A DNA stretch of 64,000 nucleotides from Actinomycetes bacterium (GTDB lineage Bacteria; Actinomycetota; Aquicultoria; UBA3085; Oleimmundimicrobiaceae), in the NCBI GenBank assembly GCA_030614255.1, contig JAUWKI010000003.1, positions 28,003 to 92,002 on the forward strand, read 5' to 3'. Both the position numbers and the translations under genes were made by a program. The notes under the pieces were generated by a model that saw only the letters and a program-made list of their open reading frames with translations, had not been told where the DNA came from and did no database searches. Positions 10,007-47,689 of the stretch are shown piece by piece (position 1 is the first letter of the stretch; the number at the start of each line of letters is the position of its first letter).

Positions 10007-10035
10007 TTGACATAGTTAAGCTGCTTTTATATAAT
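10007..10035 (+). promoter_or_regulatory. Perfect-consensus sigma-70 promoter for the T-box/tRNA-Ala leader
   Basis: TTGACA (10007-10012), exactly 17 bases, then TATAAT (10030-10035). It is the only perfect consensus promoter I found here, as expected for a stable-RNA gene. It begins 3 bases after rsfS. The predicted start near 10042 precedes the T-box Stem I. Confidence 0.85.
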
Positions 10036-10224
10036 AATTTGGCAATTAAATACGGAGCTTTGAAGAAGAGCAGTAGACCTTAGACAAGATTTTAGAGAGT
10101 TGGGATGGTGGAAACCAATATCTGGTCGAGTCGAATTTATCTCTAAGCTTGGAGCTAAAAGTCATTGTGCTATTAAGCTTCGCGTTTAGTAAACATTAAG
10201 TCACCAAAAGAGAGCGAGTTTTGT

Positions 10225-10299
10225 GGGGATGTAGCTCAGTGGGAGAGCGCCTCCTTGGCGTGGAGGAGGCCGAGGGTTCAATCCCCTCCATCTCCACCA
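10225..10299 (+). tRNA. tRNA-Ala (anticodon GGC), inside the T-box leader
   Basis: A complete cloverleaf: acceptor GGGGATG/CATCTCC, D-stem GCTC/GAGC, anticodon stem CCTCC/GGAGG with loop TTGGCGT, T-arm GAGGG-TTCAATC-CCCTC, discriminator A and an encoded CCA. The acceptor carries the G3-U70 pair that defines alanine identity. The anticodon GGC reads GCC/GCU. No separate promoter is seen directly before it; the perfect promoter at 10007 is 190 bases upstream, with T-box Stem I in between. The T-box terminator would serve as its terminator. Confidence 0.95.
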
Positions 10300-10336
10300 A
10301 TTTATATCGCTAAATAGGGTGGTACCGCGAAAGAAT

Positions 10337-10367
10337 CCTTTCGTCCCTTTGGGTGAAAGGTTTTTTT
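10337..10367 (+). terminator. T-box terminator hairpin
   Basis: The stem CCTTTC/GAAAGG, extended by CCC/GGG around a TTT loop, is followed by seven T. Its 5' arm contains CGTCCC, which can pair with the GGGTGG part of the T-box to form the alternative antiterminator. Confidence 0.85.
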
Positions 10368-10912
10368 GTTAGTTTTGTAAAGTACCAGTTTATCTGATGT
10401 ATATATTTTAAATGAAGCATTTTTATTAAATTTTAATTTGTTCATTTTTTTGCGCGCCTACTCGCTTACTCTCGCAGAGCGAAATCGCTATTTACCCTTC
10501 GGGCACGCGATTCCTGTCTGCCCTGCCTACCGGCAGGCAGGGTGCCGCTTCTACTCGAGTTTCACTCGTTTAACGGTGTGCTCAGAGTCACTCCAAGCAA
10601 GAGCCACGAGATGTTTTAAAAGCCACAAAATCTATAAAGACTCTATTGGTTTTTCTAAGGGCTAAAGGCTGGGGGGGCTAATGGCTAGAGGCTGTTTTAA
10701 AAAGCTCTTTTGCTTTTCCTGGTGGCTGAAAGCTGGCAGCTGGAGGCTGAAAGCTATATTTTAATGATATAATATTCCAATCACTGGCTCTGACGATAAA
10801 ATTGAGACCAGATACTGATTAATGATTTAGCTAAAAAGTGAGACCAACTTGAGTTGGCAAGATATCGCTCGCATCGGGGCGGAAGTTTATACCAGTTTCT
10901 ATTGGAGGCAGT
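10368..10912 (+). repeat. Long spacer between T-box and leuS: repeat copy, word repeats, possible second promoter
   Basis: 545 bases without a credible gene. 10441-10620 resembles the interior of the inverted-ended repeat family (compare CGAAATCGCTATTT...GGGCACGCGATTCCTG with 26700-26745) and contains a CCTGCCTACCGGCAGGCAGG palindrome. 10660-10756 is word-like repeats (gctaaaggct, gctgaaagct, ggctggcagct). An extended -10 TGATATAAT lies at 10765-10773 and could give leuS its own transcript. GAGACCA occurs twice (near 10804 and 10842), and CCAACTTGAGTTGG forms a small hairpin. ORF 10438-10665 is not credible. Confidence 0.55.
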
Positions 10913-13375
10913 GTGGAAAAGTACGATTTTGCGCGGATTGAGAAAGAGTGGCAGAAAAAGTGGGAAGAATCGAAGATATATGAGGTCTCAGAAGATTCTG
11001 CGCAAAATAAAAAATATATCCTCGAGATGTTTCCATATCCTTCAGGGAACATCCATATGGGCCACGTAAGAAACTATTCCATCGGTGACGTCGTTGCCCG
11101 TTATAACAGGATGAGGGGCTACAATGTACTTCATCCAATTGGCTACGATGCTTTTGGCATGCCGGCTGAAAATGCGGCGATAGCCCACGGGGTTCATCCC
11201 AAGAAGTGGACTACCAAGAATATTGATATCATGCGAAATCAATTAAGAGGCCTGGGTTTGAGCTATAACTGGGATCGTGAAATCACAACCTGTGAGCCGG
11301 ATTATTATAAATGGGGCCAATGGTTGTTTCTGCAGTTCTACAAAAGAGACTTGGTATATCGCAAGAAAGCCAAGGTAAATTGGTGTAATTCTTGCGAAAC
11401 AGTTCTTGCTAATGAACAAGTTGAAGCGGGAGGTTGCTGGAGATGTGGTACTCCGGTTGAGCCGAAAGAGCTTGCGCAATGGTTCTTCAATATCACAAAT
11501 TATGCCGAACCCTTATTAAAAGATCTTGATAAACTCCCGGGTTGGCCTGAGCGGGTCAAGGTTATGCAGAAGAACTGGATTGGCAGAAGTGAAGGAGCTT
11601 GGGTTGATTTTTCATTGAAGGACGGTGAGACTGTCACCGTCTTTACAACGCGACCTGATACCCTTTTTGGCTGCACGTTTTTCTTGCTTGCTCCAGAGCA
11701 TGCTCTCGTTGATGAACTCATCAAAGACACTCCTTATAAAGACGAGGTTGTGAAGTTTAGAAAAAAAGTTGCCAAAGAGACCGAGATAGATAGAACATCT
11801 ACTGAAATTGAAAAGAATGGGTGCTTTACCGGAGCGTATATTATAAATCCCGTAAACAGAAAAAAGATACCGATTTGGGTAGCCGATTATATTCTCATGG
11901 AATACGGAACAGGAGCGGTCATGGCGGTTCCTGCCCATGATGAGAGAGATTTTGCTTTTGCCAAGAAATACAATCTTCCCATTGAGCCGGTTATCCAGCC
12001 GACAGGTGAAGATTTTAGTTTGGGTCTCAAAGAGGCGTATGTGAGCGAAGGAGTAATGATAAACTCCGGTCAGTTTACCAATATGCCCAGCAAAGAGGGA
12101 GCAAGAGCGGTAACCAAATGGTTAAAGAAGCAGGGTAAGGGCGATTTTGCGGTGAATTACCGCCTACGTGATTGGTTGATTTCTCGCCAGCGTTACTGGG
12201 GCAACCCAATACCTATAATTTATTGTGATGAGTGTGGTGTAGTTCCTGTTCCCGAAGAAGATTTACCGGTCGTATTGCCGGACGATGTGGAGATTACGGA
12301 AAAAGGCGGCTCTCCTTTAGCTAAACATGAGAGCTTTGTGAACACGACGTGTCCGAGATGCTCTAAGCCCGCCAAACGGGAGACCGATACTATGGATACC
12401 TTCACTTGCTCTTCGTGGTATTTCCTTCGTTATACAAGTCCTCATGAAGACAAAGGGCCCTTCAGTGTTGAGGCGGCTAATTACTGGATGCCTGTCGACC
12501 AGTATATCGGTGGCATCGAACATGCGATTATGCACCTGCTATACTCTCGTTTTTTTACTAAAGTTATGAAAGATATGGGTTTGTGCGATGTTGAGGAACC
12601 ATTTTCCAACTTGTTAACCCAAGGGATGGTTATAAAAGACGGGGCCAAGATGTCTAAATCTAAAGGCAATGTGGTTGATCCCAATGAGATAATCAAAACC
12701 TATGGAGCAGATACCGCAAGATTGTTTATCCTTTTTGCTTCACCTCCGGAAAAAGAACTCGAATGGAGTGATCAGGGAGTTCAGGGCTCTTACAGGTTTT
12801 TAAACAGGGTTTGGAGAATCGTTAAAAAGAATATAGAAGCTTCAAAAACGGATAGAAAATCCAAGTTGGATGAGGTTGACAGAGAACTCCAGAGGGTAAT
12901 TCATCGAACGGTAAAGAAAGTTACAATCGATATCGAGCGCTTCAATTTAAACACAGCCATAAGCGCGACAATGGAACTCGTAAATGCCAATCATAAATAT
13001 TATGATGATAAAAATGAAGTAGAAGTAAATTCGGAGATATTAGCCGAGGCCAACGAAAAGTTGCTACTCACTCTCGCTCCTTTCGCTCCCCATATCACCG
13101 AAGAGCTATGGAAAATGACGGGAAAGACGGAGAGTGTTCATCGTGCCAATTGGCCGGTTTTTGATGAGAAGCTTGCAAAAGCTGAAGAGATAGCTCTCAT
13201 TGTCCAGGTTAATGGTAAGGTGAGGGACAAGATAACGGTCTCTGCAGATATAGGAGAGGAAGAGATGAAAGAAGTCGCGCTTTCCAGTGAAAGACTGAGG
13301 CAGTTTACTAAGGGGAAGGAAATTGTTAAAGTGATAGTTATTCCAAAAAAACTTGTCAACGTGGTTGTGAGGTAA
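10913..13375 (+). CDS. leuS: Leucyl-tRNA synthetase
   Basis: Charges tRNA-Leu with leucine. The class I signatures are seen as [14 protein letters not shown] (HIGH type) and [14 protein letters not shown] (KMSKS). The inserted editing domain lies around residues 220-415 ([31 protein letters not shown]), and zinc-type cysteines around residues 158-180 ([13 protein letters not shown]). 820 residues is normal. The GTG start at 10913 has TTGGAGGCA upstream. It is probably controlled by the T-box leader 545 bases upstream, although repeats and a possible second promoter intervene. lepB follows after 2 bases. Confidence 0.97.
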
Positions 13376-14089: not shown

Positions 14090-14296
14090 GTGGGTTGCTC
14101 TCGACTCTTGATTCGAGCATTTCTCCTCCTTGCTTCACTTCTCGGCGGCGACCTGCCTGCCTGCCGGTAGGCAGGCAGAACTCACCCCGATAAATCGGGG
14201 CTCAAACAGCTTCGGTCGAAACCCCGCCTCGTCGATTGCTCGTCGGCGCTCTCATATGCCTGCCCGCCTCTGGAGGGTCGCCAACGAACAACCCAC
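14090..14296. repeat. Inverted-ended repeat family, copy A
   Basis: The left end GTGGGTTGCTC (14090-14100) and right end GAACAACCCAC (14286-14296) are inverted repeats with one mismatch. The interior holds a CCTGCC/GGCAGG palindrome. It encodes no transposase. Related copies are at 23036-23255 and 26650-26847. Confidence 0.65.
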
Positions 14297-19581: not shown

Positions 19582-20049
19582 AACGGGTGGTTAAAGCTTC
19601 TTGCTCCTGACCAACACATTTTACTTTTTTCTCTGTTCTTAAGTTCTTCTGAAAGCTGAATGCTGTTTCAATGACTCCTGACTAGCGAAGCCCCTGCCTA
19701 CCGCCGTGCCTACCGGCAGGCAGGGCAGGCAGGGGGTGACCCTTAGGGTTACTCTCCTTAATCCTAATTCCTATCAGTTGGGAGTTTCTTAGTAAGAAGT
19801 CCCATTAGAGGCGGGCAAGCGAGAGTTTTCTAATTGGCTTGCTGGGTTTTTCTCTATTCTTTTATGCTCTCAGCTCTTAAGCTTTTCTGAAAGCTGGTAG
19901 CTGGCGTCTGGAAGCTGAATTTCCTTTCCCCATTACCCTGATTTTCCCTGGCGGCTGGAGACTGGAAGCTGGAAGCGGATAGCTAATTTTCCCTTGCGTA
20001 GTATATAATCTTCTGCAAAAATGGAAATTGAGACGGAAAGGTGGCTGAA
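19582..20049 (+). repeat. Repeat-rich spacer with palindrome and word repeats
   Basis: A compound palindrome (CCTGCCTACCGCCGTGCC and TACCGGCAGGCAGGGCAGG) lies at about 19693-19735. Word-like repeats (gaaagctgaatgctg, gctggtagctggcg, ctggaagctgg) occur at 19650-19672 and 19889-19985. TATAAT at 20004-20009 may be the -10 box of the ABC transporter operon, but no good -35 is seen. No gene. Confidence 0.55.
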
Positions 20050-23035: not shown

Positions 23036-23255
23036 GTGGGTTGCTCTAAAGCTCCGGTTTGTCTCCCTACTCATTCGACTCTTGCAGTGCGAAACTTTAC
23101 TTCCTTCATTTCCGTGCCTACCGGCAGGCACGGCAGAACTCGTCAGGCTAAACTATATCCTTCCCTTTGACTTTTAAGCCAAAGCTTCCAACTATGTTGT
23201 AAGTCGGGTATAAGCCTGGCTCAAACAGCTTCGGCTTATTTCCTGAACAACCTAT
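23036..23255. repeat. Inverted-ended repeat family, copy B
   Basis: The left end GTGGGTTGCTC (23036-23046) is identical to copy A; the right end GAACAACCTAT (23245-23255) matches its complement at 8 of 11 positions. The interior has the CCGTGCC/GGCACGG palindrome and shares ACTCTTGCAGTGCGAAA-like sequence with copy C. Confidence 0.6.
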
Positions 23256-26502: not shown

Positions 26503-26955
26503 GTAAGCTGCCAGTCTCCAGCTTAATTGTTAATTAATTATGCAAAACTAAAAAGAAGTCATTGCGAGCCCTGCAGTATTTTTGCAGAGCATGGCAATCT
26601 CGTTTTCAATTATAATAATTGCTCTTTTATTTATTCAATTATATTTTTTGTAGGTTGCTCTAATGTTCTGGTTTGCCTTCCTATTCATTTGACTCTTACA
26701 GTACGAAATTGCTATTTGTCCTAAAGGGCACGCAATTCCTGCCTGCCCTGCCTGCCGGTAGGCAGGGCGGTGTAGGCACGGTGCCGCAACTGTTCGAGTC
26801 TCATTCACTTAACGGTCGGCTGCACAGTCACCTTACGAGCAACCTACCTGGGTTTAAACGATAAAGATAATCTTATTCTATCAAACAATTTTTTAAAGTT
26901 AAGATTTGATATATTATTAAAACAGTTATTTGTGAACTTAATTTAAGGAGAATTA
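26503..26955 (+). repeat. Repeat-containing spacer before holA
   Basis: It holds the best-preserved copy of the inverted-ended repeat (26650-26847) and a short word repeat at the left. ORFs 26527-26724 and 26673-26864 fall within the repeat and are not credible genes. The AAGGAG site of holA is at 26946-26951. Confidence 0.6.
26650..26847. repeat. Inverted-ended repeat family, copy C (perfect 11-bp ends)
   Basis: GTAGGTTGCTC (26650-26660) and GAGCAACCTAC (26837-26847) are exact inverted repeats bounding 198 bp. The interior contains CCTGCCTGCCGGTAGGCAGG near 26745. There is no coding capacity for a transposase, so this is MITE-like. Confidence 0.75.
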
Positions 26956-47456: not shown

Positions 47457-47689
47457 AAGTTAGAAGAGACAGTTCTAAGCCGTTGTTACCATGCCTATCG
47501 TACCTGTCGGCCTGCCGGCAGGCAGGCAAGTCTCGATGTTTCATCGGGGCGAAGCAATCTCTAAAACCGGAAGCTGGTAGTTAGTTGATAGGGGTAAGGT
47601 TGAAACTAAAAATCAAACTCTCCACTCTTGACTAACAGACTACCGACTGGTAAAAACTGTGCCCGATGACAAGCAGGAGTGGTGTTTTA
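47457..47689 (+). repeat. Spacer with CCTGCCGGCAGG palindrome and word repeats
   Basis: CGGCCTGCCGGCAGGCAGG lies near 47510-47530. The words ggaagctggtag and gactaacagactaccgactgg follow to 47650. No gene or clear promoter is seen. AGGAG at 47675-47679 serves recO. Confidence 0.5.

Follow-up and report, generated by a model that had tools for sequence, protein, structure and literature searches.

A tRNA-Ala(GGC) gene inserted in Stem III of a T-box leader ahead of leuS

Introduction

How can one leader RNA hold both a T-box switch and the complete gene of a tRNA that is not its ligand, and do both parts still serve where they occur together? The question is raised by the window, a stretch of 64,000 nucleotides of contig JAUWKI010000003.1 from an actinomycete genome of 1.44 Mb (97% complete), in which such a leader lies in the gene order nadD, yqeK, an ORF without assignment, rsfS, leader, leuS and signal peptidase I. 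An earlier note on this DNA had proposed the arrangement from the letters alone. Here we examine its anatomy, its spread among bacteria, the selection acting on it, and its state in the window's own family.

Results

A complete tRNA within a T-box leader

The features of the locus are as follows.

10007..10035, + strand: promoter TTGACA-17-TATAAT, 12/12 match, directly 3' of rsfS
10051..10351, + strand: T-box leader with tRNA insert (RF00230, 92.5 bits, E 5.2e-21, model positions 1-219 of 219)
10051..10148, + strand: T-box Stem I with AGTA and distal loop GGTGGAAACC, from the RF00230 alignment; kept in family members except G004
10136..10138, + strand: specifier position, UUU, in the register given by alignment with relatives
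10208..10212, + strand: RRRxG purine motif AAGAG ahead of Stem III, from the sequence; motif as in PMC7583486
10213..10217, + strand: Stem III 5' strand AGCGA, from fold and covariation
10225..10299, + strand: tRNA-Ala(GGC), anticodon 10257-10259, encoded CCA 10297-10299, G3:U70 (ARAGORN; RF00005, 68.6 bits)
10307..10311, + strand: Stem III 3' strand UCGCU, from fold and covariation, followed by conserved AA (10312-10313)
10316-10329, + strand: T-box core AGGGTGGTACCGCG, from the sequence
10316..10348, + strand: antiterminator, A1 AGGG/CCCU and A2 GCGAAAG/CUUUCGU with a terminal G-U pair, from a fold of 10312-10351
10320-10326, + strand: 7-nt antiterminator bulge UGGUACC, from the same fold
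10337..10367, + strand: intrinsic terminator, stem-loop 10337-10360 plus T7, from the sequence and an extended fold
10523-10540, 14157-14174, 19706-19723, 23114-23131, 26748-26765 and 47508-47525: copies of the palindromic repeat CTGCCTACCGGCAGGCAG in the window
10913..13375, + strand: leuS, leucyl-tRNA synthetase (TIGR00396), GTG start with GGAGG upstream

The match to RF00230 covers the whole model, including the AGTA/GNUG loop and specifier loop of Stem I, and so bears out the Stem I that the earlier note had claimed. The gathering score of RF00230 is 93, and the window's match misses this default threshold by 0.5 bit; because the T-box thus scores just under the curated cut-off, a default Rfam scan reports the tRNA alone. 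In the RF00230 alignment the tRNA appears as an insert within the Stem III hairpin of the model, where AGCGA pairs with TCGCT, and 7 nt separate the tRNA from the Stem III strand on each side. The purine motif precedes this helix and the AA that follows it belongs to the discriminator motif described in PMC7583486. The earlier note had the tRNA either replacing Stem III or inserted into it; insertion stands and replacement does not, since the base helix and the RRRxG/AA motif are retained and the tRNA caps Stem III. The tRNA itself is intact, as had been claimed, with a cloverleaf fold, anticodon GGC, the G3:U70 pair, discriminator A and encoded CCA, and these identity elements predict that it can be charged with alanine.

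The T-box core and terminator of the earlier note were likewise found in place, with the 7-nt UGGNACC bulge in an antiterminator that competes with the terminator. With its 3' end withheld the sequence folds into the antiterminator, and when complete into the terminator; the fold of the whole leader has a z of -3.1. The specifier fares differently. A leucine-type triplet had been expected ahead of leuS, and the window carries UUU, which is no leucine codon, whereas most relatives carry CUC; the claim of leucine sensing in the window is therefore lowered. Homology nevertheless assigns the element to the T-boxes despite its UUU, and its leucine specificity has probably been lost or changed. Three further T-boxes occur in the window's genome, and the tRNA insert is absent from those of their loci that were fetched.

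The perfect promoter match, also noted earlier, is the only one between 9800 and 11000. The spacer from the terminator to leuS is ~545 nt long and contains repeat-bearing DNA, and the best promoter candidate ahead of leuS is weak (9/12 match). The palindromic repeat CTGCCTACCGGCAGGCAG is dispersed over the window, with 10 matches on both strands where chance would give 0.01, and one of these copies falls in the spacer from the terminator to leuS.

Spread of the composite leader

A total of 85,000 species genomes were scanned for a tRNA T-arm, CCA and a T-box core at short distance, with amino acid and gene left unspecified, and at least 119 places were found where a tRNA T-arm lies just upstream of a T-box core. 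Among the matches listed, ARAGORN found a tRNA in 115 (114 Ala(GGC) and one Ala(CGC)) and leuS lies downstream in 110, several of those without leuS ending too soon after the core, at the end of the locus or contig, to tell. An automatic search read the specifier as CUC in 105 of 111 of the matches listed, and inspection by eye did so in five of the other six. In L185, an Anaerolineales record, no leucine codon could be placed at the specifier; L185 is also the sole carrier among the matches listed with a tRNA-Ala anticodon CGC in place of GGC.

By record title, the matches listed belong to Bacillota (58), Chloroflexota (35), Thermomicrobiota (8), Armatimonadota (3), Atribacterota (3) and Coprothermobacterota (2), with one record each from Caldisericota, Actinomycetota, Pseudomonadota and Thermodesulfobacteriota, and two unplaced. 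The composite thus reaches roughly eight or more phyla; its tRNA is always an alanine tRNA, and the gene that it precedes is almost always leuS. A search model built from 70 carriers gave exactly one high-scoring match in 52 of 63 genomes from the class of Syntrophomonas wolfei and in 27 of 47 from the class of Ktedonobacter, and no high-scoring match in Actinomycetota sampled from other classes than that of the window. When 51 T-box cores of relatives were inspected, all leuS T-boxes among them had the tRNA, and inserts of other tRNAs were not seen. The LeuS tree of the carriers groups mostly by phylum (13 changes, where the least possible is 9 and shuffling gives 45), a pattern compatible with an ancient arrangement and a certain amount of transfer or of mislabelling of bins. 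In one carrier (G012:C4, L074) the tRNA is set apart from the T-box core by ~165 nt of additional sequence, and in several others, including L132, L149 and L175, leuS starts at least 1 kb past the core.

In 18 of the 21 carrier genomes examined, that of the window among them, the tRNA-Ala(GGC) of the leader is the only GGC copy found by an exact-pattern search, run partly on draft genomes, that a divergent second copy could escape. The other three, all Ktedonobacteria, possess an additional free tRNA-Ala(GGC), which means that not every carrier depends on excision. One additional pattern match, in G012, was judged by eye to be no tRNA.

Selection on Stem III, tRNA and promoter position

Compensatory changes, which the earlier note had proposed to look for, were found not only in the tRNA but also in the helix around it. 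In an alignment of 70 carriers such changes affect 15 of the 23 pairs predicted, nearly all in the tRNA, whose helices are preserved throughout and whose alanine identity pair G3:U70 is invariant (70/70). RNAalifold alone gave no Stem III because the lengths of the flanks vary, and the named helix was compared with shuffles instead: 75.5% of its cells are paired against 60% in shuffles, and 77 cells are doubly changed, a count that none of 500 shuffles reached, against 26.5 in the shuffles. With a slid partner strand at most 49% are paired. In an alignment-free test, cognate flanks pair at a mean of -10.6 kcal/mol and swapped flanks at -7.0 (p ~1e-4), a gap that is partly due to differences in composition between species. 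The AA after Stem III is present in 66 of the 70 carriers and the RRRxG motif in 42 of 70 by a fixed-column count.

A tRNA that completes Stem III could in principle serve as a structural cap unused in translation. We consider this hardly credible, given that alanine identity is always kept, the tRNA is canonical everywhere, its CCA is mostly encoded, and most carrier genomes yielded no other tRNA-Ala(GGC). Very improbable, too, is a ligand or blocker acting in cis, whereby the ACCA end of the embedded tRNA would pair with the UGGU bulge and the switch would sense tRNA-Ala maturation. The sequence permits this pairing in the window, where ACCA lies 20 nt upstream of UGGU, but the encoded CCA is missing in 13 of 84 carriers and a GGC anticodon does not match a CUC specifier, and on these two grounds the idea was rejected. 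Also rejected was a second codon, CUC followed by the alanine codon GCC: GTC, ACC or ATC stands there in 37 of 106 carriers, and the bases after CUC appear, in a helix read by eye, to be part of the basal Stem I helix.

The position of promoters points to one transcript. Relatives have 67 strong promoter matches 180-270 nt before the tRNA where ~0.7 would be expected, and only 5 in the last 150 nt before it, against ~1 expected; the window's promoter lies in the same interval (-270 to -180) as most of these. A separate promoter for the tRNA was not seen in the window and is rare in relatives. These data agree with the earlier proposal of a single transcript that has no second promoter and ends at a common terminator. 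On the three points that the earlier note had made decisive, Stem I matches the T-box model, the arrangement recurs in relatives (Bacillota, Chloroflexota and other phyla), and no promoter was seen directly before the window's tRNA.

Erosion of the switch in the window's family

Members of the window's family differ in how much of the T-box they retain. The core is intact in G002, where the specifier is CUC, and in the window, where it is UUU. In G003, which shares UUU, the core is damaged (AAGGTGGTATTGCG). G001 (C65, likely the true locus) has UUC and a Stem I remnant and has lost the antiterminator, and the locus of G004 comprises just a promoter, the tRNA and a CGTCCC-bearing terminator. 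A second contig of G001 (C130, L064) was rejected as a same-genus example, its LeuS grouping with Atribacterota and the contig probably being a contaminant of the bin. The T-box is absent in the same way from G022, G032 and G035, which, like G004, keep promoter, tRNA and terminator ahead of leuS. In other families of the window's class tRNA-Ala(GGC) lies beside leuS or rsfS and a T-box was not seen. Across the family the tRNA has hardly changed even as the switch decays, so the tRNA seems to be the component that the locus cannot lose.

This series bears on whether the T-box is already dead in the window's species, the locus being a tRNA-Ala unit with a terminator and leuS being expressed separately. 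We give this an even chance. The UUU specifier, the long repeat-bearing spacer and the relatives G003, G001 and G004 speak for it, whereas the antiterminator with its bulge and the terminal G-U pair of A2, the Stem III motif and the terminator are all intact in an element of 92.5 bits, and the promoter match ahead of leuS is weak. Leucine control may thus be weakened or lost in the window's species, and since the T-box half is decaying in this family, the relatives are the safer ground for claiming a leucine response.

The loci that lack a T-box also suggest that the tRNA could be a passenger, that is, a tRNA-Ala between rsfS and leuS that merely shares the leader by co-transcription and is tolerated by Stem III, an element that varies among T-boxes in both stem and loop (PMC7583486). 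Excision of the tRNA requires no regulatory role, and a single old event followed by inheritance would also yield a conserved composite. The same tRNA, gene and insertion point together with a maintained Stem III in many phyla argue instead for a stable and probably useful composite, and we put the chance of a mere passenger a little below even.

A model for the composite leader

Our preferred reading, to which we assign a probability of roughly 0.8, is that of a leader with two functions, in which a Leu-responsive T-box governs leuS and tRNA-Ala is excised from the same RNA. From the single promoter ahead of Stem I, one RNA with both sensor and tRNA would be made, in the order Stem I, tRNA-Ala within Stem III, and antiterminator or terminator. 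Stem I would read a tRNA via its specifier, which in nearly all carriers, with CUC, would be tRNA-Leu(GAG). Charged tRNA-Leu would lead to a stop at the terminator and a short RNA that includes tRNA-Ala, and uncharged tRNA-Leu to read-through into leuS. RNase P and 3' nucleases would free tRNA-Ala in both states, a release that would be required because most carriers have no other tRNA-Ala(GGC) gene that was found. Excision would come afterwards and sever the sensor from the antiterminator. What was observed directly is the architecture with its conservation and covariation, the common promoter position, the linkage to leuS, the alternative folds and, in the genomes checked, the single copy of the tRNA gene; from there we infer the leucine response of the CUC carriers, the excision, and this order of decision first and cleavage later.

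Whether switching is also mechanically coupled to tRNA maturation is more doubtful, and we regard it as rather unlikely. RNase P can be slowed when the leader of a tRNA pairs with the 3' RCCA (PMC9433436), and Stem III joins the tRNA leader and trailer farther out than that pairing. A paired Stem III might thus slow RNase P, with excision cutting off the sensor after the decision. If so, excision would end the sequestration of tRNA-Leu and give the leuS mRNA a new 5' end, and leucine status and the supply of alanine tRNA would be tied in one RNA.

Discussion

The composite leader shares with class I transcriptional T-boxes of the leuS type (RF00230), known from Bacillota, the Stem I, specifier, Stem III-AA element, antiterminator with UGGN bulge, terminator and position before leuS. 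It differs in its Stem III, which ordinarily forms no more than a short hairpin (Rfam model; PMC7583486) and here is capped by a complete gene for a tRNA that is not the ligand. Its other likenesses are to systems of two further kinds.

Ordinary tRNA genes in mixed tRNA-mRNA transcripts are excised by RNase P, and there, too, a tRNA has to be cut from a longer RNA leading to a protein gene; here, however, the tRNA sits inside a regulatory fold and its excision would split sensor from switch. Tandem or two-codon T-boxes, such as that of glyS in Staphylococcus, also involve more than one tRNA per leader, but both are ligands in trans, whereas one of the two here is a product encoded in cis.

The literature searched, with key older T-box surveys outside its scope, contained no description of a tRNA gene within a T-box leader, and a term search of the survey that Wels and colleagues published in 2008 (PMC2494555) gave no mention of the arrangement. 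The earlier statement that no example had been described thus held in a full-text search, although older T-box surveys may contain a mention. A riboswitch holding a functional gene for a different, mostly single-copy tRNA is accordingly an arrangement for which we found no description. Annotation can miss or split it, as the Rfam cut-off drops the window's T-box and lists the tRNA alone.

The composite makes several matters testable: the limits of what can be placed in Stem III, the way in which a tRNA is released from a folded switch, and the reason for joining leucine control to an alanine tRNA. In such leaders tRNA processing and T-box antitermination must use one common RNA, and a large share of some bacterial classes would make a needed tRNA solely from within a regulatory leader.
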